A DNA stretch of 64,000 bases from Monosporascus cannonballus (taxonomy: Eukaryota; Ascomycota; Sordariomycetes; Xylariales), in the NCBI GenBank assembly GCA_004154925.1, contig QJNS01000168.1, forward strand, positions 1-64,000, in the 5' to 3' direction. The stretch's first letter is position 1; each line of letters opens with the position of its first letter. Below the pieces are notes generated by a model that searched no databases, was not told the DNA's origin, and worked only from the letters and a program-made list of their open reading frames with translations. Of the stretch, positions 23,059-43,275 are shown piece after piece. A program made the position numbers and the translations under genes.

Positions 23059-26000
23059 ATGAGAATATTAAAGAGTCATCCTTTATTAAGATTAGTTAAT
23101 TCGTATATTATTGATGCATCACAACCTAGTAACATTAGCTATTTATGAAATTTTGGGTCATTATTAGCTATTTGTTTAATAATACAAATTATAACAGGTG
23201 TTACATTAGCGATGCATTACAGTCCTAATGTATTAGAAGCATTTAATTCAGTTGAGCATATTATGCGTGACGTAAATAACGGATGATTAGTTCGTTACTT
23301 ACATAGTAATACAGCTTCAGCTTTCTTCTTTTTGGTCTGTACTTTTTATATTTGCTTTTATTTGTGTGTAATATTTATTGATGCTTTCATCCCTTTTTTA
23401 TTAAAAGAATCTAGATATGAAGAAGTAGAGTCTGTTAATTTTTCTAATGTAGGAAATGAAATAGATTTTACTTCTAACCAAAAAAATTCGTTAAATACTC
23501 TTTCAGATGAAGACTTCTCTGAATGATTAAGAGGTTTTATCGATGCGGATGCGGAGGGAAATTTTTTTATACAAGTCTTTGAAGGTCGTTTTAAATTTAT
23601 ATTTACACTTTGTGTACATAAAGATGAAACACCTTTAATTAAATGTATTGCACAAAAATTAGGAGTAGGAAATCTTTATGTAAGAGATAAAACTGTTAAT
23701 TATTCTATTTCAAAAAAAGTGGATCTAATGAAAATTTTTAATATTTTAGACAAAAAATCTCTTAATACTAGTAAAAATTTAAATTACATAATGTTTAGAC
23801 AAGCGTATGATCTTTATTTTAATCGTGAATCTACAGTTTCTAATGAATTACGTGAAAAAATCCTTAACCTTAAGGGTCAAATGAATAAAAAGAGAGTTGA
23901 TTTTAATCAACCTGAAGGTCATTCTATATACATTACTCGTTATTGATTATTGGGATTTATAGAAGGTGACGGGTTTTTTTCTGTCAATCAATCTGACTAT
24001 TCATTAAAATTTGGAATTTCACAAACTTATTATGAATTAAATGTATTAGAAGAAATTAAAAAGTTTCTATTAAATTTACCAGGTGAATACTCAGTAAAAA
24101 GAAAAAACCAGGATATTATAAAATTAGATATTTATAATCAAGCTAAAGGTCGAAATCATCAACCTATGGCCTCTATCTCAATTAATCAATTAGGTTATAT
24201 TACTAATATACTTATACCTTTTTTTGATAATTTGATTTGATTAAGTAAGAAAGAAAAGGATTATAAAGACTGAAAATTAATAATAAATATTGTTAACCAA
24301 GGTAAACATTTTACTGATGAAGGTAAAGAGTTAATATCTTTATTGTCTAAAAGAATGAATAATAATAGATTATCTACTAGTTTAGCTTATCAAGAAGTAA
24401 GCAAATTAGATAATGAAGCCCTTCTGACTCCGATCTCCTCCGTAGGCGCAGGAGAAAGAGAAATAACTTTTTTAAAAGAAGATAAAGTTAAGGAAAGAGT
24501 ATTAAAACTTTTATCTGCCCCCTCTAATTATGAAACACAGCCAGATGGAAAAATATTGATAAAATCAACAGGTACTTATCTTAAAGGTAGAGGGAACGTA
24601 GGAGTAAAAGTCTTAGACGAAAAAGGCGGATTAGTATATAGCTTTAATTCGATAAAAGATTGTGCTTTATTCTTTAATGTTCATAGTAGAACTATAAACA
24701 GAAGACTAGATAAAGGGAATATTGTAGAATATAACGGAAAAAATTTGATATTCAAACGGGATATAATGAAAGATTTATAAATATAATTCTAATTAAAGGC
24801 CCTATACTCAGTTACATATAAAGTATCTAACTATATATGTAATGTATAGTCCATTATGCTTTTAAGGTACTGAGGAATAGTAAAGGAGATGTGAGTAATC
24901 TCTTTTTTGGCCAATTTGTGGGAGTGAACCTCCTGCTATAAACCATCAAATTGCGGGAACACCTTAAAGCAATTTTAACCAAACAAACATGGTAACATAG
25001 TTTGTGGCACAGGTAATGACTCGTGGTAAGGTAAAATCAAAATTGATGCACGAAAGGAAATAGGTTATCCGCAGCCAAGCACCTACATACTTATAGTATG
25101 GGTGTGCAGTTCATCGACTAAATGTTGGTTGGCATGTATAATATTTTATATTATCGTGCTTAAGATATAGTCAAACCCTAATGGAAACATTATAGAACAA
25201 TAATAGCATGCTGATCTTTTAACTAGGTTGGTGTTTTCTTAACATTATTGTTTTAAATTAGTAGTTGTGTTAAGCTTTGCTTAACCAACTGCTAAGAAGG
25301 GGGTAAGGACCCTACTCAGCCTGTTTTGTAAATATTTTTTTTTTTATAAATGGCAAAAGGGGTAGATTTGCTACTTACACATAGGTAGAGGTATATACTA
25401 CGGATCTTATAGATATCCAAGAACATTAGTTTGAGCTATCGGTACTGTTATACTTATACTTATGATGGCTACTGATGAAATTATGTGGCCAAATGGATTA
25501 GTGGATTATCAAGTTAAATATACTAGCGATATCGTAGTTTCTGTTTTACCTTTTAATAAAGGTAGAACTAGAGCTATTCGTAGAATAGGTCCTCATAATA
25601 TTGATGCATTATCAATAATAATATGTGGTATGTTAGGAGATTGATGGGGTAATAAGATAAAAGGTCAACAAATGGATAGTGTTAGATTTTGTATTGAACA
25701 AGGTGTAAAAAACTCTGCTTATATACATCACCTTAACATTGTTTTGTGTGATTTAGGTTACTGCTCTACAATTACTCCTAAATTAATCGTTAAATCTGAA
25801 GCAAAGGTTGATAAACGATTAGATCCTACGTTAACTCGTTATAACTATAGATTAACAACCCATAGTTTTACTAGTCTATTATGGATATACAATTCCTTTT
25901 ATTATGAAGTCAACGGTATTATGACGAAAAAAATACCAGATTGAATAGGAGAATTTATAACACCTATAGGTTTAGCTCATTGGATTATGCAAGATGGATC

Positions 26001-29000
26001 TAGACAAAAAAATCAAGGAATAACTCTTGCAACTAATAGTTTTTCATATAAAGATTGTCTTTACTTGAGTAAAATACTTAATGAAAAATATGGACTTAAA
26101 ACTAGTGTTATAAAAGCAGGCCATGTTGATCAATGAAAAATAAGTATATGAAAACAATCTATGGCTGATTTAGTTTCAATAGTTAAACCGTATATAATAG
26201 ATGAAATGAAATATAAATTTATAGGGTATATTTAACTTGACTCCAAAAATCAAAGTCCTACTTTAACTTAGAGTATATGCAATATATAATTAAAAATATA
26301 CTGTTATAATTAATAGCTTTTGTATTAATCATGAACTAAAGTAGAATACCCTGATAGGGGTATTGGGTATATTGCCTGGCTACGCTAGTGAAAACGGTTA
26401 AACATTCGTTATCTGTTTATAGACCGTCGGTTAATTATATAATCGCTACAGACTGGATCACTGGCGGGTGTCTGAAATGATGCTTAATGTACAGTCGAAA
26501 GTTCCTAATTGAAAAGATTACACAAGGCTTTAGATGATATATATTATAAAGATATTTGCTAGATATCGGGGACTAATATATTGATAAAGCGCAGGGGCGC
26601 TATACAGATATATTTAGGATATAGTTAGCCGGAACTTAGACAGCTTTCCTGGGTTATGAATATAGCCCAAAATGATTTAATATAAGTAATAAAGGAAATA
26701 TAATAAAGTATAACAAAGTAAACAGTAAAAGACTGTTTAACCAAAGCATAGTAAAAAGAGGATATTGTACAAATCGTCCTTCAGATAATATTGAAATTTC
26801 TGAAAGACTAAAAACAATTCTTCAAGAATTAGGTTTAAACCCGGTATATATTTATGAAAATTTAAATTTAGAAGATACTAGAAAACAAATATTAAACGAT
26901 ACCAGAGGTTTAAGCGGTATATATATGATAGTTAATAAAATAACTAAAGACTATTATATAGGTTCTGCGGCAACTAATAGATTTTATGCTAGATTCTGTA
27001 ATCATGTTATTTATTTCAGAGGTAGCAAAATAGTTAAATTAGCAATTAAAAAATATGATTTGAAAAATTTTGCTTTTATTGTATTAGATTTATATCCTAA
27101 TATTGTTACCAAGGAAAATAACCAAGAATTATTGGATTTAGAAGATAAATATTTAAAATTGTTAGTCCCTAACTATAATATTTTGACAGAAGCAGGTTCT
27201 AGTTTTGGTTACAAACACACTGAAATTGATCGTCAAAAGATGAAAGATATCTATAGTGAGGCTAGACGTGAAAGAATAGGTAATCTAAACAAAGGTAAAA
27301 AGCTTTTGACAGAAACCCTAGAAAAAATGAGAGAAAAGGCTTTAAATAGACCTCCCATGTTAGATGTAATTAAACAAAAGTGTATAACTAATACAAGACC
27401 TGTTGTATTATATAATTTGAATGGAACTGTTTACGGTGAATATTCTACTATTTTAGATGCAGCTAAATCTATAAACTGTTGTTCCCGGAGGGAAAAGAAA
27501 AAACTATTAGAAGAGCACTAAAAACAGAAAAAGGATTAGTAAAAAGACAATGAATAGTAAAAGATTTGTCAAGTAAATAGTTATCTAATTATCAATATTT
27601 TATTATACTTTATTTTTATATTAAATCATAGTCCCACGAGTAACAATCTTTCTGCAATCTTTATAGAGAAAAAAAAGATTAAAGTGGTATAACCCGACGG
27701 GGATATAGAATAGTCTTTAAGATTATTTGGCGATGTTAGTGAAAACGATCAAAGAAGTTTAAACTTTAAGATCGTCGGTTATATAAATAATCGCGACAGA
27801 CTGCGTCACTAATGGGTGGCTGAAATGCTGCTTAATGCACAGTCGGAACTTTTGGTTGAATTATTTTAACTAATAGAATATACGAATTTAAAGTTATTCT
27901 AGCTTATTATCTTTATAATAAGTAAGTTTGTATGTACTGCCCTATGGGCAAATGAGCCTATGAGGTAATTATTTGCCTCAAATGTATAACTAAAAATTCA
28001 AGACTTTATGATGATTGATGCCGTCAATTGTTTCTAACGTCCTCTGCAACTATGCCAAAATAAAAAAAAAAAATACAAGTTCCCATTTAGCCAAATCCTT
28101 CATACGCCATGAGCCCAAAACTTAGTAAAGAAACAAGTTTAATCTGATCCGAGCTATCCCTTTTTTTTTTTCTTAGCTCACATTTTGCCCCTCTAAACCG
28201 AATAAACTTATTTCTGATAATCCCTTCCCACATCTTTTGTTTTCAACCAGCCATTTCAGAAAAAACTTTTTTAACCACAGCTGTTACCTTCGTGACAATA
28301 TGTTTCACATCGTCATCCGTGACGATGTATGAAGGTGCAAGGATGATGTGGTCTCCACGGTCACCTTCGAGGGTACCAGTGCCTGGGTAGACTGTCATGT
28401 TAAATGGGGGTGAGATGGCCAAGTCTTGAATTTTCTGACCAACGCCAAGTTTGGGGTTGAAGGGCTCTTTGGTCACTTTGTCCTTCACGAATTCCAGACC
28501 CCAGAAAAGACCCAGTCCCCTAATGTCTCCAACATTTGGATGATTGCCCAGGTTAGCTTTTAAACGTTTTTCTAAAAGCGCACCCTGTTTGGAGACATTC
28601 TCCATCAATTTGTCTTCCCGGATGATTCGCTGAACCTCCAGAGCAGCAGCTGGCTGTACTGGCATGGCCTGGTAGGTCAGCCCATGGACGAACTGTCCAC
28701 TTCCCTCCTTGATCACGTTTACGACCTTTTGTGATATCATTATGGCCGCGATCGATTGATACCCAGCGCCAAGTCCTTTACCCATGGTTTGGATATCAGG
28801 TACGACATCTTCTGCCTGCCATGCATGCAGAGTGCCAGTCCGACCCATTCCGCACATGACTTCATCGAGTATGAAAAGAGCCCCATGTTTGTGGCAAACG
28901 TCTCGCATTGCTTTGAGATAGCCTGGGACATATGGAACACAACCAAGCGCGGCGCCGACGACTGGCTCAGCAATGAAGCCGATCACTGTATCCGGGCCTA

Positions 29001-32000
29001 ACTCTTGGAATTTTTTCTCGAGTTCGGCGGCTTTTCGAGCAACGAAAGCAGGATTAGATTCACCTTTTTCCTGTTGACGATAGGGATTACATGAAGAAAT
29101 GTGGTGAACATTCTTCATGAGGAATGGAATGTAAGGTGCTCTCCGGGCAGGATGTCCTGAGACAGATAAAGCACCGATCGTGTTGCCGTGGTACGAACTC
29201 TGACGGGTGATGAAATTGACACGGGGTGTTTGCTTGTCTTGTTCATAATAATATTGACGAGACAGCTTGATGGTACCCTCCATCGCCTCAGAACCTGAGC
29301 CAGTCAAGAAGACTTTGGCCATTTTCCCATCCGTTCCCCGGATGAGCTCCTTGCACAAGTCCTCGACAACTTCGTTGGCCCAAAATGAGGATGCCAGGTA
29401 GGGAATTCCGGTTTCTAACTGTTCAACAATTGCTTTGATCACTCTTTCGTTTCTGTGACCAAGACAAGAGACAGCAGCACCTGAACATGCGTCAAACACC
29501 TCACGCCCTTCCTTTGTATAAAGGATATTATCCTTTCCACGCACGATCTTGGTATAGATCTTGTGAAGATTACGGTGAAAGGAGTACTCCGGATTATGTT
29601 CAACGATTTCAGGTGAAAAGGCCATAGTGCAGGATGATGCAGGTGATAATATTCAGAAATATATCTGTGTGAGGTCGTGACCAAGAGAAGACTCAAAGAG
29701 TTGACTGATGATAAAGTTTGATCTGGATCAAACTATAGATTGGTTGTGATTGATAGTGACGGATTTGATTGTGATAGTATGGATGAATAAGTTGGTTGTG
29801 ACTGATGGTGATGGATTTCGTTGTGTCGACGAAGTTCGCTGTGTGGAGGAAAAAGTAGGTTAGTATTGATGATGATTGATCTGATTGTGGTAGATGGTAA
29901 TTGATGAGGATTGATTTGATTGTAATTGATGGTGATTGACTGTGAAGAAAGAGAAAGCAAAGAAGATTCCACATCCTTATATACTTTTTCTTTGTCAAGA
30001 TCACATGTAAATTTTCATTTGATTTCTAAGCAAGGGGATGTATCGGTGTTCTCCGAGGTTCTTTTCATTAGATTGAAGAATTTTAATGACTCATTATGGA
30101 TCTGCAAGATTCCGTGATCATTAGGTAAAGAGGGCAGATGATCAAAAATGAAACAAGAGATAAGGAGATAATAGATATGATAGGTTAGAAGATTGAGGGA
30201 TTTATGCGAGGTAGTTCAGGTAATATGCGCCCGCTGCAAGGTGAGCAGCATGTGATCTCGTATTTGATAGTGGGGAAATGCTAAGGAGGATCTTCATTTA
30301 TCTCTGTTAATCTATTGGTTGATCAGCTATCACAAGACTAAAAGCAGCGCTGCGGAATGATCTCCGCATATGGAGGTGGCTAAATTGAAAGGAGAAATAA
30401 TGTTAATGATTGGCTAGAGTATTCGCCTGATTCATGATGACAAGGAGGATGACGCGTCATGATCCGCACTTTTTCTTCCTCCGAAACAAGTGTGACTAAT
30501 GCTAATAAACCTCGTATTCGACGATCATCTTGTATTCGTCGATCATCTCGTATTCGTCGATCATCTCGTATTCGGCAGCTAAATCTATCAAGTGGGCTTT
30601 ATCGTATGATTTGTATGTAAGGGATGCAGTCATTTCATCTTTTATTGGTAGAATAGGCAATGTGATGGTGGTTTGTGTGATATGGAGGGTAAGCGGCAAT
30701 AATGAAGTGTATGGAATATGACAAGGTTGATCTCGTATTAGATAGTGAGTAAATGCCAAAAAGAGTTTTCATTGGATATATAGATGGAAGGAATCTTGGC
30801 AATGTGGAGTATAAAGAAGAAAACCTGTTTTCCTGAAAGATCCTTGTTTTATGACTCAATGATCGTCATAAGCAGGATGGATCTACGCAATTCAAAATGA
30901 AACAAGATATACAGAAACCACGAATAAGATTGCTAGATTATTTATCATATGACTCATGAATGATGAGATGATAGGTGATTAGGTCGATATTTGAGGGGTT
31001 TATGCGGTATGATTATGAAGTAGATCGAATATGGTGTGTGATGGATGGTAGATTTTGCCATGTGATTTGTTTATGCTTATCTATTGGTCATAGACTAGGG
31101 TAAGGAAATCTTGGCAGATCTAGATCCTAGATAAGAATACGTAAGATGATGAGACAATGATTCATCATTCTGAAGCGTTATCGTTCGTGAATGATGAAAT
31201 TTTCCTTCCCAATATCTATTTAAGCTTCATCATTTCTCCTTACTCTGAAAGTACTATATTAGATTAAAGCAGACATTCTCATCGTTTATCAAGCTATCTT
31301 CTTTACTTGTTGTTTTAATCATGAATCTTCCTCCTTGTGTTCCGCGTACCTATCGTTTTGGTCAAATCAACACTCATGATCTTTCCCTGTCTACCGCACC
31401 TCGGAGTCCTAAGAGAGAGAATGACGATTTTCCAAGTGACGCATCTTCAACCACTCTATCAGAGGGTTCAACTGAATTCATTGCCAACTCGAATGATTCA
31501 ACAACCTCTTTGAGAAAACCTTCAGCTGAAGGTTTTGACTCAAGTAGTGATGAAGATCCTTTCGCCTCTACTACTACGAACTTGTATGGAGATACCGTGG
31601 AATTGAGCAAGGGTCAGAAGAGAAAGAATGCACCTGTGAATCCCCGACCAACCCGCAAAGGTAAGTTTCCTCTCCCTTTTATTTATTACACTTTACATTG
31701 TTTTATTAAGTTTTACTAGTGAGACCTCATCTTCATCATAATGGCGTTGAATGGCGCTATGGCCCACGACGGTTGAGCGGTAGATCGAAATCAGTTCGAG
31801 AACATCTCAAACAACGAGATTCGGAACGTTCTCCAACCCTTCAAAAGATTTCATCCCGAACCATTATATATAATCGCCCTCAAATCAAAACGCTTGCTCA
31901 AAAACTCGAAGAAGTTGTAGAGCAGCATTTGAAGGAGAACCCTGAGGATTGTGTGAGAGCTAGTTCGGAGATTTCGTCTTGGAAGGAATCCAGTGAGTGG

Positions 32001-35000
32001 GTTGTTATGGAAGATATAAAAACTAAAGTTGTGGAATTCACTCTTGATTTTAGGTTTATTAGTTATACATAGTTGCATAATTAAGTGAGTGAGGTAATAT
32101 TTACTTAGAACTCCCTTTTTCAAAATTTTGCAGCAATACTAGTGAAAACGGTCAAATATATTTGTTTAGTATAAAGACCGTTGGTAGAGTAAAATATCGC
32201 GACAGACTGGTTCACTGGTGGGTATCTAAAATGATGCTTAATGTACAGTCGGAGTCTTTTCTCAATATAAAATTAATATGTTTCTAGATTGAGACACAGG
32301 GCTTTGTACTAAATTCTAATTCTTTTTATTAAAAAGTACAAAGTACAGGGTTTGCTTGTTTTAAACATGAAAAGCTAAATACTATAGCTAGAATAAGTAA
32401 ATTAAAGACTTGGCTACAGTTTAACCGCGAAGTAATAGCTGTAGTAAAATACCACTAATTGCTGGAAACTCTTCTGTTCAGATGACAATCAGCAGGGAAA
32501 TTAACATATTATGTTAAAACCTTCAGAGACTATACGTGGTACATTTAACTTTTTTATATAGTAATATTTTTATTATATAGATTAAGAAAATGAAGATATA
32601 GTCCAAATCATTAAAGAGATTTAATGTAAGGAGAGTTGCGCCTCCTTCCTTTTTTAATAACAGTAAATGTTTCAGTATGTTTGCAAGCATAAACCTTATT
32701 TAAGGTTAATAAAACGTTGTTCATACTGGGTTGTTAAAAACAAAGGTTTAATGTATTACTTTTTTAATATCACCATTTTTATTATATTATTCTCAAATTT
32801 ATTTAGATTTATACTATTACTTAGCATTTATCTTTTTTAAATCTAAGGAAAAAAACCATAGTGAAACTAATGAGATCAATGTTTTATTAACTGGTGTCCA
32901 TAAAGAATTACCTGAACCATCTTTAAATACAAATTTTATAGAATGGTTCGTAGGCCTTTGTGAAGCAGAATCTAATTTTTTAATTAGAATAAGAAAAAAC
33001 GAAAAAAAGCAAGTATCGGGTTTTGAGTTTGTATTTAGAATCACTTTACATCAAGATGATAGAAAAGTTTTAGAATACATAAAAAATTCATTAGGATGTG
33101 GTAGATTAAATACTGAGAGAGATGTTTTAGTTTTTTCAATATCTCAATTAAATGATATTGAGACAGTATTAATACCTTTATTTGATAAATTTTCATTAAA
33201 TACTACCAAGTACTTGGATTACCTTGATTTTAAAAAAGCATTTTTTATGTTTAGAAATCGTAAATCAAGTGAATTATCTTTACAAGAATTAAATTTAAAT
33301 ATTATAAAATTAAAAGAAGGTATGAATAGTAAAAGAGTAAATTTTGTTTTACCTAAGGATCATATTATAGTAATTACAGGTAATTATCTTGTAGGTTTAC
33401 TAGAGGGAGATGGGTCATTTTTCTTAAATAAGCATGATATGACTGCTCGTGTTTCACTTGTTACTACTACAGTTAATAGACTAGTTTTAGAAAAAATACG
33501 TGAGTTTATTTTAGGCTTATTAGACGAGTATTCTTATATACTAGGAAGTACAACTAAGTTAGTTAATATTAGTGATAAAAAATTTAAAAGTGGTCAGAGA
33601 CCTATCTCTATATTAGAAATCTCTCAAATAGATTTTATTTGTAATGTACTAATTCCTTACCTAGATAATGTAGAATTTAGAACTAAAAAATATCATGATT
33701 ACCTAGATTTTAAAACAATAGCATTATTAATCTTAGAAGGTAAATACTTAACTAATAAAGGTAAAGAACTAATAATTAAATTAGGTGATAGTATGAATAA
33801 TAATAGATTATCTACTAACCCTTACCCTATAATATTAGATGATACTACTAAGTCAGAATTAAATATTCTAATAAAATCAGATCCTTTAATAAACATAGAT
33901 TCTGAAGGTAGAGCTATGATAATATCTGAAAAAAAATATATAAGATCTACCTATATTATAAAAGTTTACCTTCTAAATGGTTCTGTTAATTATTTTACAA
34001 ACGGTGTTTCATGTGCTAAATTTTTACATGTAAGTAATGATACTATAACAAAAAGATTAAACGACGGTAAACCAGTAAAAAATAAAGAAGGTTTAGTCGT
34101 CGCTCAAAGTATAAAAAGAGTAAAAGCTTACTCTTCTTTGAGATCTTATTAAAAAAACGATACAAATTCTTAACTCGTATTTGCTCGACCACGTCGTAAA
34201 ACAACCACTTAATTATAAATTGGTTAATTTTTGTATTACTAACCTTATAAGTGCTATTCCATGAATTGGACAAGTCTTTTTAATTAGTTTTACTTTATTA
34301 ATCAATGAAATATATATGAATTTGTATAGAAAAGTTGAATTCAATAAACCTGTAACAAAAGTTACACATATTTATAATAAATTCCGTTACGCAACACAGT
34401 GCCTAATAAATAATAAATCTTTCGTGCACGGAGTTAGAAACTATTCAACTAGTAATACTTCAAACTCAGTAAAACTAGATCCTGATTATGTTTCAGGGTT
34501 CATAGATGCAGAAGCTTCATTTACTACCGTAGTTTACTATAAAAACCGTTGATGTGTTAACTCTGTATTTAAAATTTCTCTTCATAGAAAAGATATAGAG
34601 TTACTAAATTCTATACAGGCTTTTTTTGGTGTAGGTAGAATTACAGGTAGTGACAATGCGGACTATAGAGTAGAAAGAATAAGCGATTTGGCTGATTATA
34701 TAATTCCACATTTAGATAAATATCCCTTAATTAGTAAGAAAAAAGCAGACTATGAGCTTTTTAAACGTATTGTTTTTATAATGAGGGATAAATTACATCT
34801 AACTGATAAGGGGTTACAAGAAATAGTTAATCTTAAAGCATCTATGAATAATGGAGTTTCAGAAGTATTATTAGCAGAATTTCCAGCTACAATTCCGGTA
34901 GATAGACCAATAGTAAAAAACCCTGTGCTAGCAGATATTAGACCTAATTGATTAGCTGGGTTTACAGACGGAGATGGTTGTTTTGTCATTTACGTAGAAA

Positions 35001-38000
35001 AAAATACTAAGCTTCGTTCAGGTTTTCGTGTAAGATTAAGATTTAATATTTGTCAACATATTAGAGATAAATCTTTACTAGAGACTATAAGTTCTTACTT
35101 AAATTGTGGTAGTGTTTTAGAAACTTCTAGAGGAGAAATTAACTTTGATGTTTATAAGTTTTCAGATAATTATGAGAAAATTTTACCTTTTTTTACTAAT
35201 TATCCTCTTCATGGAGTTAAAGCTTTGGATTTTAATGACTGAAAATTAGCAGCAGAAATTTTAAAATCTAAAGATCATTTAACTAAAGAAGGAATAGAAA
35301 AGATTATTAAAATTAAATCAAATATGAATAAATCTCGTGTAGCGGACTAAAAATGGTTTATAATTATTATAGTATGTGTAAGTTGTTAGGGTTTATTTAA
35401 GTAGACAATTAAAAAGATTTGTATTAATTTAAGATAGCTTATTATATTTATTCGAGAGGGCCTTTCCCTCAGGGCTGATATCTATATATTTAAATAGAAT
35501 TATATTTATCATGCTACTAATGTTAATAGTAAGATTATAATACGAAATAGAAAAAAGTATTACTAACCTTATTAGCGCGATACCTTGAATAGGTACTGAC
35601 GTTGTTGAGTCAAAAATTATTACAACAATTATTAATTTATGTTTTGGTGTTGTTATTTTATTTTCAGTTGTAGCTGTTCACAAGTATCTGGCTTCGCTAC
35701 ATTTAAATGTTTCGGATACCAAAGCTTCCTTACCTACAATAGGAGTTATTCATAAGAATGCCTTAAAAAAAGGTAATAAAACTTTAAGATTGGATAAACA
35801 AGAATATATTTCAATTCCTTCATCTTTTTTAGCCTTTTTAGTTGGATTAATTGATGGGGACGGATATATTCAAATAAGTAAAACACCAAAAGGGTTTATA
35901 ACTATGAAATTAGTTATATCACTACATTTAGAAGATATTTCTACTTTAGAATATATTCATTCTGTTTTAAAATTAGGTAAGATAAATATTTATAAGGATT
36001 TGAGAAGCCCTGCTTGCAAATTAGTTATTAATAAAACTGATCTACAAGAAGTATTGTTTCCATTACTTTTATATAATAACATATTTTTCTTAACTATTAC
36101 TAGAGTAGATCAATTTAATTTGGCTATGTATATATTAAAAAATGATATTAAATTGTATAATGAAATACCTAATGTAAATAACATACCAACTATTTTTGAA
36201 ATTCCTAATAATCCATTTGATTATACATTATTACATTTTTTTAAAAATTGAATTGTAGGATTTACATGTTCAGAGGGTTCTTTTTTTATTAAAAGTAATA
36301 ATGATGGTTGTTTTCAATTAAAACAAAGAATACATTCTAATTTATTCGAGGCTTTTAAACTAATATTCGATACAAATAGAAAAATAGATACAACCAATAA
36401 TTATAGTCAATTTGGTGTTAGTTCTAAATCTGATATACAAAAAGTTATAAATTTCTTTTCATTTTCAGGTTTACATCCTTTAATTTCACATTTTTTTAAA
36501 GATTGAATAGTAGGATTTGCATGTCCTTGATTATATCCCCCCCTTGCTCAGTTTGTCCAAAATAACCCTCTTACTTATAAAAGAGTAAAAAGAGATTTAA
36601 AAAAAATTGTTTCTAGACGGAAGGGTTTTAATTATTTTAAACAAACCTTAAAACAGCAAGAAAAGGTTAGAGGTAGTTCTTATTCTAATAAAGGTTAGAG
36701 ATAGTTATTAGTTTAATGTACAAAAATTATAAATTTTGTCAGGTTTACAACCTATAGCAAGTTTCATTATAAAAAATTTCTAGTGATACATTATAAAAAA
36801 ATATGATATATTGTATCTATACTTTTTTAAGAGTATAATTTAATGGAAATATAGGGAGCATTCAACCTCCAACCCTCAGTTCAAGTCTGAGTAAGCCTAC
36901 TTCGCGATTATTATATCGAATCACAATAGCAGAGTAGGTAATTCATCCTTTACGAAGGTATTTTTTAGATTCAAAATATGAAAAACAGAAGTATATGTTA
37001 TAAAGATATAGTATTAAATAATATTTATCAATTACGAAGTTACAGCTCGGGGGGTGGATTAAATTCGGATTCTTCAAATTCTAGCTTTAATATAACTCCT
37101 GAAGTTATTTATGATAACGCTCAAGAAAATAAAGAAATTGCAATTAAAAGCAATAGAAAAAAATCAGGAGTTTATAGATGGGTGCATAATAAATCAGGGA
37201 AAATGTATATTGGTTCTAGTGCAGATTTAGGGCAACGTTTTTCTAGCTATTATTCTTTAATTTGAATTAAAAGTCAGGCTAAGCGTAGTATAATTTATAA
37301 ATCTATCTTGAAACACGGATTATCTGAATTCAGGCTAGAGATACTAGAATATTGTAATAGTGAAGATGTTATAAAAAGAGAGCAATTTTTTCTTGATTAT
37401 TTAAAACCAGAATATAATATATTAAAAATAGCCGGATCTCGAGTTGGTTTTAAAGTTTTAGAGGAGACTAAAGCTAAAATTAGTGCAGCTTTAACTGGAC
37501 GTGTTCTTTCAGAAAGTGTTAAAGGTAAAATAAAAGCTGCCAGAATAGGAGTTAAACATAGTGAGGCTACTAAAGCTAAATTGAATGAGCATTTGATAAA
37601 TTTAAATAAAAATATTTTAGCTGAAAAAAATAGTATAAAAGTAACTATTTTTGACCTAGAAACTAAGGTTTTTACGGAATATCGTTCAATAAGAAAAGCT
37701 GCCGAGGCTATAGGAAGTTATGCCCATAAAATTCTTAACTATGAAAACCTAAAATTAAATAAAAATTACACTAAACCTTTTAAAGGACGCTACGAAATAA
37801 ATATTATTAGAATATAATATATACAATACGTTAATTGATTAAATAATTTGCGTGAAAGTTCGCGTTATAGTAGTTTAAATTATCCTCAGTAATAGATCAA
37901 TCTTATAATACTCTTACACCAAAAAACCTGAATTAATAATTGTAATGGGCTCCTTAAAATAATCTTCATATAAGAAGATTAATTTTAAAGTCAAATGGGG

Positions 38001-41000
38001 AAAATTACAAGGACGTTTAATAAATTACCTCCAGTTTATTAGATTATTTGTAGCGAAGTTTAATCAGGTATATATAAAATGATTAAGAACGTTCAACGAC
38101 TAATGAGTGAGTTATACTAACAATAAGCTCAACACGAAACCCCCAAAATCATCGCAAGAATGTGATGGTTTAAGATATAGTCTAATATACCCTTAAGGGT
38201 GTAAAGTATAAATTAAATATTATACGAATTACATATGTCATTTGAGGAGGTTTAAATATAGATGAACCACACTATGGTGACATAGTGTTAAAAATCCTGC
38301 TTAATGCTGGAAAATCTCCTAATTTAGAATTTGCATACGATTTATTCTTGATACCACCATTAATTATTAACGTAAAAACTGCAAAAACATGGAGAAAACC
38401 AGCCGGGGTGAGAAGTCTACATACTTCAGTAGCCTCTCAGAGACTACACGCAGGAGATCTCAAATTCGCTTATTTAGTAGGTTTATTTGAAGGGGATGGG
38501 TTTTTTTCTATCACAAAAAAAGGTAAATATTTAACATATGAACTTGGTATTGAATTATCCATTAGAGATGTACAATTAATATATAAAATTAAAGATTTAT
38601 TAGGTGTAGGTGTTGTAAGTTTTAGAAAAAGGAAAGAAGTTGAAATGGTAACTTTAAGAATTAGAGATAAAGACCATTTAAAAAATTGCATTTTTCCTAT
38701 ATTTGATAAATATCCTATGTTTTCTAATAAACAGTATGATTACTTAAGATTTAAAAGTGCTTTACTTTCAGGTATTATATATTCAAAAGATTTACCTGAA
38801 TATACTAGAAGTAACAAGCCTATAAATTCCATAGAATCGATTATTAATACATCATATTTTTCTGCTTGGCTAGTAGGATTTATAGAAGCTGAAGGTAGTT
38901 TCAGTATATATAAATTGCAAAAAGATAAAGATTACTTAATTGCTAGTTTTGAAATTAGTCAAACAGGTGGAGAAATTATAATATCTGCTATTCGTAAATA
39001 TTTCTCCTTTACTACTGCGATATATTTAGATAAAACCAATAATTATAAATTAAAAGTTACAGGTGTAAGATCTATAGAAAATGTAATTAAATTTCTAGGT
39101 AAAGCACCTGTTAAATTATTAGGTAATAAAAGATTACAATATTTACTATGAATAAAGCAATTACGTAGAATATCTAGATATTCTATAAAGATAAATATAC
39201 CATCAAATTATTAAATAAATTAACTTACTTAAGCAAGAGATCATGATATAGTCCGATCAATAATGAAAATTATTGAGTGTAGTGAGAGTATTTAATATAT
39301 TTATATTAAATACGGGACTACCAACATAATGTTCTGTTAATAACGCTACTTTAAACAGATTCTTCGCATTACACTTTGTATTACCATTTGTTTTAGCAGC
39401 ATTAGCTTTAATGCACTTAATAGCACTTCACGATACAGCAGGGTGGTTTAATATTGGCCCTAAATTTTTATATATAAAATATACATTAATGATTACTAAA
39501 AGACAACTTCATAACAAAGCAAAGCTAGCATTTATATTGCCTAATTATAACGCCAATAAAAGAATAGGTCCTCATAACGAAGATGTTATTTCTTTATTAG
39601 TCGGTTCATTATTAGGTGATTGTCACGCAGAGCGAGAGAAAAGTGGAGGTGTTAGATTTAGATTTAAACAAAGTGCAGCAGATAAGGATTATATATTTTG
39701 GTTACACGAATTTCTTAATAAAAGAGGCTATTGTACTAATAACTTACCTGTTCTTTTCAAAGATGGAGATAAATTGCAGCATCTCTGTTATCGTTTTGGT
39801 ACGTATAGATATACAAATTTAATGTGACTATATAAATTATTTTATAATCATAATAAGCAAAAGAGAGTACCTAAAAATATAGCTGATTTATTAACACCTT
39901 TGAGTTTAGCCGTTTGGATTTGTGACGATGGTGGTTTTAAAAAGCCAGGTCTTAGAATTCATACTAATAGTTTTACACAAGAAGAGGTGATCTTATTGTC
40001 ATTAGCATTAGATACTAAATTTAATATAAAAAGTACATTACATAAAAATCAAGGTAATTTCGTGTTATATATCGAAGGAAAATCTATGCCTTTATTAAAA
40101 AAATTAGTATTACCTTATATAATACCAAGTATGCGCTACAAATTAGGATTATAAGTATATATATATATATATAAAGTAGTTGTGAGATAAAACATTTTAT
40201 CTCTAAGTTTCCGACAGGAGACTTAAATTAGAATACTTTATGGGTATTCTAGTTTGGCAATGCTAGTGAAAACGGTTAAAATATTAATATTTCTGGTAGA
40301 AGAGTATTTCATGTTCTCTTGAATAATCGTGAATCAGAGTATTACACCTATATTAATACAAGACCGTCGGTCATATGAATCCTAGAATGTTTAAAATATG
40401 GTCGCTACAGACTGGGTCACTGGTGGGTGTTATTTTATGTAATGCTTAATGTACAGTCGAATAATTGTTACGCAAGTAACCCTTTAGGAGTGTCAGGTAA
40501 TTATGACAGATTACCTTTTGCTCCTTATTTCTTATTTAAAGATTTAATAACTATCTTTATGTTTATATTTGTTTTAAGTCTATTTGTGTTCTTTATGCCT
40601 AATTACCTAGGTGATTCAGAGAACTACATTATGGCTAATCCAATGCAGACACCGCCTGCCATTGTACCTGAATGGTACCTACTTCCCTTTTACAGTATTT
40701 TACGTGCGATCCCTAATAAACTTATCGGTGTTGTTGCTATGTTTGGTGCTATTGTTTCTTTAATAACTTTACCTTATGTTGATTTAGGTAGATCAAAAGG
40801 TTTACAATTTAGACCCCTAAGTAAATTAATATTCTGAGTGTTTGTAGCTAATTTTTTAGTTCTTATGAGATTAGGAGCATGTCATGTGGAATCACCATTT
40901 ATCGAATTAGGGCAATGTTGTACTATTTTATATTTTAGTTTTTATTTATTACTATTCCCTCTAGTAAGTGTACTAGAAAATACTTTAATGGATTTGTCAT

Positions 41001-42948: not shown

Positions 42949-43275
42949 TACGCTATATTAAGATCTATACCTAATAAATTATTAGGAGTTATTGCTATGT
43001 TTAGTGCAATATTAGCAATAATGTTATTACCTATAACAGATTTAGGAAGATCTAAAGGTTTACAATTTAGACCTATAAGTAAGATAGCTTACTTTATTTT
43101 TGTAGCGAATTTCTTAGTTTTAATGCAATTAGGTGCTAAACATGTAGAGTCACCATTTATAGAATTTGGACAAATAAGTACAGTTTTATATTTTGCGCAT
43201 TTTGTATTTATAGTTCCTTTTGTAAGTTTAATAGAAAATACTTTAGTTGATTTATCTTTTGGAAAAAATTCTTAA
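42949..43275 (+). pseudogene. cob: displaced original cob 3' end
   Basis: Encodes [20 protein letters not shown], then [34 protein letters not shown] and a stop at 43273-43275. It parallels [20 protein letters not shown] and so on, at the end of the current cob, with many substitutions. The open frame is intact although it has no start or exon link, so the displacement is recent or the segment is still under constraint. Confidence 0.88.

Follow-up and report, generated by a model that had tools for sequence, protein, structure and literature searches.

Two genes of nuclear type within a cob group I intron of Monosporascus cannonballus mitochondrial DNA

About 4 kb of foreign DNA with an intact, standard-code class III aminotransferase gene and a second gene in two exons was found inside a group I intron of cob, between the intron helix P1 and the intron core, in the ascomycete Monosporascus cannonballus. 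The window, i.e. the whole stretch analysed, comprises 64,000 nucleotides and corresponds to bases 1-64000 of contig QJNS01000168.1 (C93; 171,561 bp, GC content 0.298) of assembly GCA_004154925.1. C93 is mitochondrial DNA (mtDNA), as its content of cob, ribosomal RNA (rRNA) and transfer RNA (tRNA) genes, group I and group II introns and many LAGLIDADG, GIY-YIG and reverse transcriptase (RT)/maturase open reading frames (ORFs) indicates. A nuclear RNA polymerase III subunit encoded in the assembly shares 96% identity with its counterpart in Diatrype stigma (Diatrypaceae, Xylariales), so that the fungus can be called Diatrype-like. A first-pass annotation had reported a nuclear-type block with these two genes at this place, and both the block and the genes were recovered here: GC content and Markov segmentation set the block apart, both flanks belong to the same intron, and its borders could be refined. 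With a probability of roughly 0.55, the block represents a recent insertion of two genes which is carried as a passenger and removed together with the intron.

The interrupted intron and the limits of the block

For the placement of the cob exons a Pezizomycotina cob sequence served as yardstick. At the left of the block-bearing intron the exon end UGAGGU is able to pair with GCCUCA of the intron (27975-27980) to P1 with a terminal U.G, GCNACNGT occurs only once within 27967-36000, at position 32413, and joining of the exons across the intron with GCTACAGT restores the cob frame, which reads through for 32 residues. The intron was delimited on these grounds, and the group I hallmarks of a P1 ending in U.G, a terminal G and an in-frame exon join are thus all present. 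The conserved core to the right of the block matches five other sites of C93 over 32138-32251 with 74-82% identity, one of these sites being the core of another cob intron (26385-26497); by eye, the core also resembles one near 27732-27847 in cob. When the block was omitted and the flanks were folded in three different joins, P1 was formed in all three and P3 and P4-type helices in two, with no P7 seen and no shuffled control for comparison. The intron had been assigned to class IB in the first pass; it reads instead as ID-like, a putative class for an intron core that has no Rfam match.

The block extends at least from 28243 to 32072, and its borders are bracketed to 27981-28243 on the left and to 32073-32134 on the right. 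In 1-kb windows, the GC content climbs from about 0.28 outside to values of 0.37-0.49 over the stretch 28.0-32.1 kb. An order-3 Markov model was used to discriminate nuclear from mitochondrial DNA, with six loci of together 39,230 bases, exclusive of an AT-rich stretch of contig C346, as nuclear training set. The top nuclear-scoring segment of the whole contig was 28275-29849 with 201 bits, a further segment at 31330-32001 reached 40 bits, and 13 of the 20 windows of 200 bp in 28001-32000 scored as nuclear. In the controls, 10.4% of 357 held-out mitochondrial windows scored as nuclear and 0-25.6% of the windows in the six nuclear loci as mitochondrial. Four other segments above 40 bits (100-144 kb) were rejected as foreign blocks, since they fall on rRNA, group II intron and RT/maturase features. 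The balanced base composition ascribed to the block holds for its genes and fails for the spacer at 29.85-31.33 kb, where the Markov score is about zero and the GC skew reaches 0.335.

In the two preceding cob introns ORFs are located upstream of the cores, namely a LAGLIDADG ORF (25462-26232) and an ORF matching NUMOD1 (26925-27518). The earlier proposal that the block had replaced an endonuclease ORF therefore fits with respect to its place; no remnant of such an ORF was seen.

Table 1. Features of the block, of the intron that bears it and of the adjoining cob exons
Feature	Position	Strand	Details
Class III aminotransferase, intact, 460 aa	28243-29625	-	PF00202; TGA stop; GC content at third codon positions (GC3) 0.477
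Spacer; short tandem arrays at 29740-29825, 29865-29939 and 30511-30574	29626-31320		Composition ambiguous
Second gene, 230 codons, two exons	31321-32072	+	Putative GT-AG intron 31661-31719; GC3 0.342
Block-bearing group I intron	27967-32412	+	P1, in-frame exon join, fold of joined flanks; last base G at 32412
Conserved intron core, P3 onward	32134-32258	+	Similarity to other C93 sites and fold; without Rfam match
cob exon pieces (yardstick alignment)	23059-23337, 25366-25473, 27931-27966, 40472-40999		
cob exon piece before the block	27931-27966	+	12 residues = yardstick 132-143; ends at codon 143 (GGT, G143)
8-nt cob exon GCTACAGT (A-T-V)	32413-32420	+	Between two group I introns
Start of next intron	32421-32626	+	Overlapped by Rfam group I match 32393-32626

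Farther along the window a cob exon piece of 12 residues is duplicated (34235-34273 and 35559-35609) and the cob C-terminus is found twice (40472-40999 and 42949-43257), which may follow the pattern that arises when introns bring along an exon fragment. C93 also contains two near-identical internal repeats (3386-3752/126237-126603 and 16-188/127986-128158), one of them with a duplicated tRNA-Val. The sole tRNA-Arg found on C93 has the anticodon tct, and the contig may be incomplete.

Coding character of the two genes

The aminotransferase matches PF00202 over residues 18-449 with an E-value of 4.5e-81 and 273 bits (cut-off 30.5). K283, which we take to be the pyridoxal phosphate lysine, and D254 and Y145-H146, presumably active-site residues, are located in invariant columns in alignments of 13 and 24 proteins. 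The name BioA (adenosylmethionine-8-amino-7-oxononanoate aminotransferase), given in Joint Genome Institute (JGI) records, was rejected due to a score of 276 bits for TIGR00508, below the cut-off of 405; the family NF005685 ('aspartate aminotransferase family protein') was passed with 541 versus a cut-off of 485. Residue 325 (28651-28653) is proline in the window protein and alanine in 12 other aligned rows, which is either a private change or a sequencing error.

Reading in the standard code, as proposed in the first pass, was confirmed. All three tryptophans of the aminotransferase are encoded by TGG, internal TGA codons are absent and TGA is the stop codon; under code 4 the frame would continue for 52 codons to 512 aa. 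In the four cob pieces, TGA encodes five of six tryptophans. Arginine codons are of the CGN type in 16/20 cases in the aminotransferase and 13/20 in the second gene, compared with 3/12 in the four cob pieces and 12/42 in three LAGLIDADG ORFs. The GC3 values of the two genes (Table 1) likewise lie above those of four mitochondrial ORFs (0.158-0.207) and of the four cob pieces (0.211), so that the aminotransferase is mitochondrial neither in its code nor in its composition. Among the host nuclear genes, GC3 was 0.656 in RPC2 and 0.743 and 0.884 in the two exons of an aminotransferase paralogue on contig C112; long frames elsewhere in the nuclear loci that were sampled, which are not genes in every case, ranged from 0.39 to 0.87, and frames in the AT-rich C346 stretch did not exceed 0.16.

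The ratio of the residues F, Y, M, I, N and K to G, A, R and P (FYMINK/GARP) is 0.94 in the window protein, 0.85-1.05 in 11 near rows and 0.72-0.96 in 19 presumed nuclear rows, with overlapping ranges. In simulations of neutral drift over 460 codons under code 4, in which indels were not counted, the frame was open in 27 of 400 runs at 5% divergence and in 5 of 400 at 8%. Since the 460-codon frame is intact and such frames seldom stayed open, either a recent insertion or continued constraint is implied for the block. The orientation of the gene differs from that of the RNA and intron features of this contig: Rfam matches on C93 lie on the plus strand in 40 of 40 cases (9 and 31 from two scans) and tRNAs predicted by ARAGORN in 22 of 22 (3 and 19 from two scans), and the aminotransferase, on the minus strand, runs opposite to every rRNA, tRNA and intron feature detected there.

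In the second gene, the removal of 59 nt (GTAAGT...TAG) joins the two exons in frame, and this stretch is a likely GT-AG intron, although it is one of five frame-compatible options. As the gene retains this putative intron, an origin of the block as a retrocopy was set aside. A Pfam scan of both exons gave no domain, and among 202 candidates six partial relatives were obtained, five to exon 1 (77-98%) and one to exon 2 (85%), none of them named. Two of these relatives contain peptides resembling GC hairpins; a search of C93 for such peptides gave none, which leaves a mitochondrial location of these relatives a conjecture. Coding composition, the TGA stop and the putative GT-AG intron together indicate that the block was written for a nuclear system.

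Relatives of the aminotransferase and searches for further copies

In a protein search 7,999 candidates were scored and the best 120 were taken further. A tree of 95 rows was calculated from 93 of these (at least 440 aa, up to row P0100), the window protein and one host nuclear paralogue, and a second tree of 38 rows from 37 hand-chosen rows of that set and the window protein. Almost identical relatives originate from metagenomes: P0001 differs from the window protein at 1 of 460 residues and the cluster P0121 at 2 of 132. Three fungal rows, 63-78% identical to the window protein in alignments, bear on the location of the gene. The record of P0100 (Apiospora kogelbergensis) is labelled mitochondrion; P0006 has an N-terminal nad4L (PF00420) fused to the aminotransferase; and P0032 (Juglanconis oblonga) has a long N-terminal extension, with a record name that is silent on mitochondrial location and a deposit that we assume to be a mitogenome. 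Among 30 rows whose ends were inspected, P0051, P0057 and P0078 were judged to have hydrophobic, mitochondrial-looking extensions.

In the 95-row tree the window gene falls into a clade of 61 rows together with P0100, P0006 and P0032, with a support of 99 in the Shimodaira-Hasegawa-like approximate likelihood ratio test (SH-aLRT), and is separated there from orthologues of Leotiomycetes located on large contigs; the corresponding clade of 22 rows in the 38-row tree has a support of 100/98. Forcing of the window gene into a group with 13 presumed nuclear rows, picked after the 95-row tree was known, was rejected in the approximately unbiased (AU) test (p-AU 7.15e-9). The trees thus support that the window aminotransferase belongs to a Pezizomycotina clade with mitochondrial members, away from ordinary nuclear orthologues. 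The clade is not purely mitochondrial, because Diaporthe batatas (2.95 Mb), Diaporthe sp. PMI_573 (650 kb) and Hypoxylon sp. FL1857 (474 kb contig) are included in it; these rows are presumably nuclear, contig size being only a hint of location.

A search of the nuclear assembly for the same aminotransferase locus had been suggested in the first pass. In the 88.8-Mb assembly of 618 contigs, searches revealed no second copy of the aminotransferase, the second gene or the block, the search at DNA level being one that skips repeats and very common words, and the best host nuclear aminotransferase is 43-52% identical to that of the block. Outside C93, a stretch of 65 bp (C346:26666-26730) matches intron DNA downstream of the block with 86% and may be mitochondrial DNA that was copied into the nucleus. 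In a genome-contig search the best 80 of 189 matches were all bacterial by title and 46-50% identical. A search of IMG/VR for relatives gave one 45% match and then none in 20 candidate stretches. The intron-core pattern led in IMG/VR to one fungal mtDNA contig with the preceding cob intron and apparently a different intron at the next site, so that no empty-site relative was obtained; the junction pattern gave none. In the record IMGVR_UViG_3300027664_000476, which is filed as viral, the stretch examined consists of fungal mitochondrial DNA from the cob region.

Origin of the block and comparison with known systems

The reading favoured here is that a DNA fragment of about 4 kb, with two standard-code fungal genes on it, entered a cob group I intron at a site upstream of the intron core. 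P1 and core would have been left whole, so that the block would be transcribed as part of the intron and removed by splicing, which would make it tolerable. The block is most likely a passenger in the organelle, since its aminotransferase is antisense to the rRNA, tRNA and intron features detected on C93 and the other gene apparently depends on a spliceosome. The donor would be a locus that is or once was nuclear, with a higher AT content than in the measured host genes: the moderate GC3 argues for a donor unlike these genes, and FYMINK/GARP leans in the same direction with overlapping ranges. An AT-richer region of the host could have served, because frames in the nuclear loci go down to a GC3 of 0.39, and in C346 to 0.16 or less; another fungus is the other candidate. 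That the gene was simply copied from the host nucleus, as suggested before, does not agree with the search result of no nuclear copy, the GC3 below that of the measured host genes and the clade shared with mitochondrial relatives.

Several results weigh against a recent passenger insertion. The GC3 values of the block are intermediate between those of mitochondrial ORFs and of the host genes measured, the searches brought up no donor locus, the Rfam scan gave no match at the core (32134-32258), P3 was absent in one of the three folded joins, and the clade with mitochondrial records leaves room for a long mitochondrial residence under selection.

A tentative extension of the insertion reading is that the aminotransferase shuttles repeatedly between nucleus and mitochondrion in Pezizomycotina. 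The block would then be a recent arrival before recoding, together with a nuclear neighbour and its spliceosomal intron, at low cost inside a self-splicing intron.

It is rather unlikely that the aminotransferase is instead a long-standing functional accessory gene of Pezizomycotina mitochondria, mobile between mtDNAs and introns, kept under selection and translated by mitoribosomes, under code 4 to 512 aa. The 61/95-row and 22/38-row clades with A. kogelbergensis, the nad4L fusion and J. oblonga speak for such a gene, as do the rejected grouping with presumed nuclear rows (a group chosen post hoc), the FYMINK/GARP value despite the overlap and the view of the authors of PMC6140425 that the Annulohypoxylon stygium mtDNA gene was vertically inherited. 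However, the TGA stop, the lack of TGA-encoded tryptophan, a GC3 of 0.48 versus 0.16-0.21 in mitochondrial ORFs, the antisense orientation, the companion gene with its nuclear-type intron and the clade members on large, presumably nuclear contigs of Diaporthe and Hypoxylon point away from it. An assembly artefact, in which two false joins would have placed a nuclear fragment within the mitochondrial contig (a double chimera), is improbable: the missing nuclear copy would be expected if its reads had been placed here, and the near-identical proteins stand in metagenome clusters with differing longest contigs (P0001, 9,622 b; P0121, 80,013 b), but the 171,561 bases contain no Ns, both joins lie within one intron with P1 and core intact, and no word of 8-14 bases that could have misled an assembler is common to both borders (27967-28120 and 32041-32140).

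The combination of standard-code genes, an intron of spliceosomal type and a self-splicing shelter offers a fungal case in which the entry of genes into mitochondria could be dated. A clade with both mtDNA and presumably nuclear members would allow the frequency and direction of gene movement to be asked, and the question is raised whether the intron slot that endonuclease ORFs occupy also serves as a point of entry for foreign DNA.

The first-pass view that such transfers are rarely described in fungi has to be revised, as class III aminotransferases in fungal mtDNA have been published (PMC6140425, PMC11277600), even if PMC6140425 itself calls transferase genes in fungal mtDNA rare. According to the same paper, the mtDNA of A. 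stygium (Xylariales) has an aminotransferase class-III-like gene, and its transferase genes are thought to be vertically inherited. PMC11277600 mentions an aminotransferase in the mtDNA of Pestalotiopsis fici and reports that a nuclear origin has been proposed for N-acetyltransferases. In PMC7902536 and PMC8393795, which both refer to Wai et al. 2019, aminotransferases are counted among the proteins encoded in introns. Among the papers listed, at the level of titles and abstract beginnings and with few subscription papers covered, none dealt with a nuclear-type block of two genes inside a cob intron.

The window gene resembles that of A. stygium in being a class III aminotransferase in Xylariales mtDNA; compared by description only, the latter has two short introns and is located between atp9 and cox2, outside cob (PMC6140425). 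The N-acetyltransferase of A. stygium (cob-i3) and the P. fici transferases are likewise non-endonuclease metabolic genes in a cob intron or in intergenic regions (PMC6140425, PMC11277600), but differ in enzyme or place, and the text available on them describes no two-gene nuclear-type block. In contrast to P0032 with its N-terminal extension and P0006 with its nad4L fusion, the window gene consists of nothing but a standard-code ORF of 460 aa. With the homing-endonuclease ORFs of cob group I introns the block shares the place upstream of the core, whereas Pfam gives no endonuclease, only the aminotransferase and nothing for the second gene. The block is therefore an unusual new example of an already known phenomenon, with an aminotransferase of the kind reported from other fungal mitochondria.

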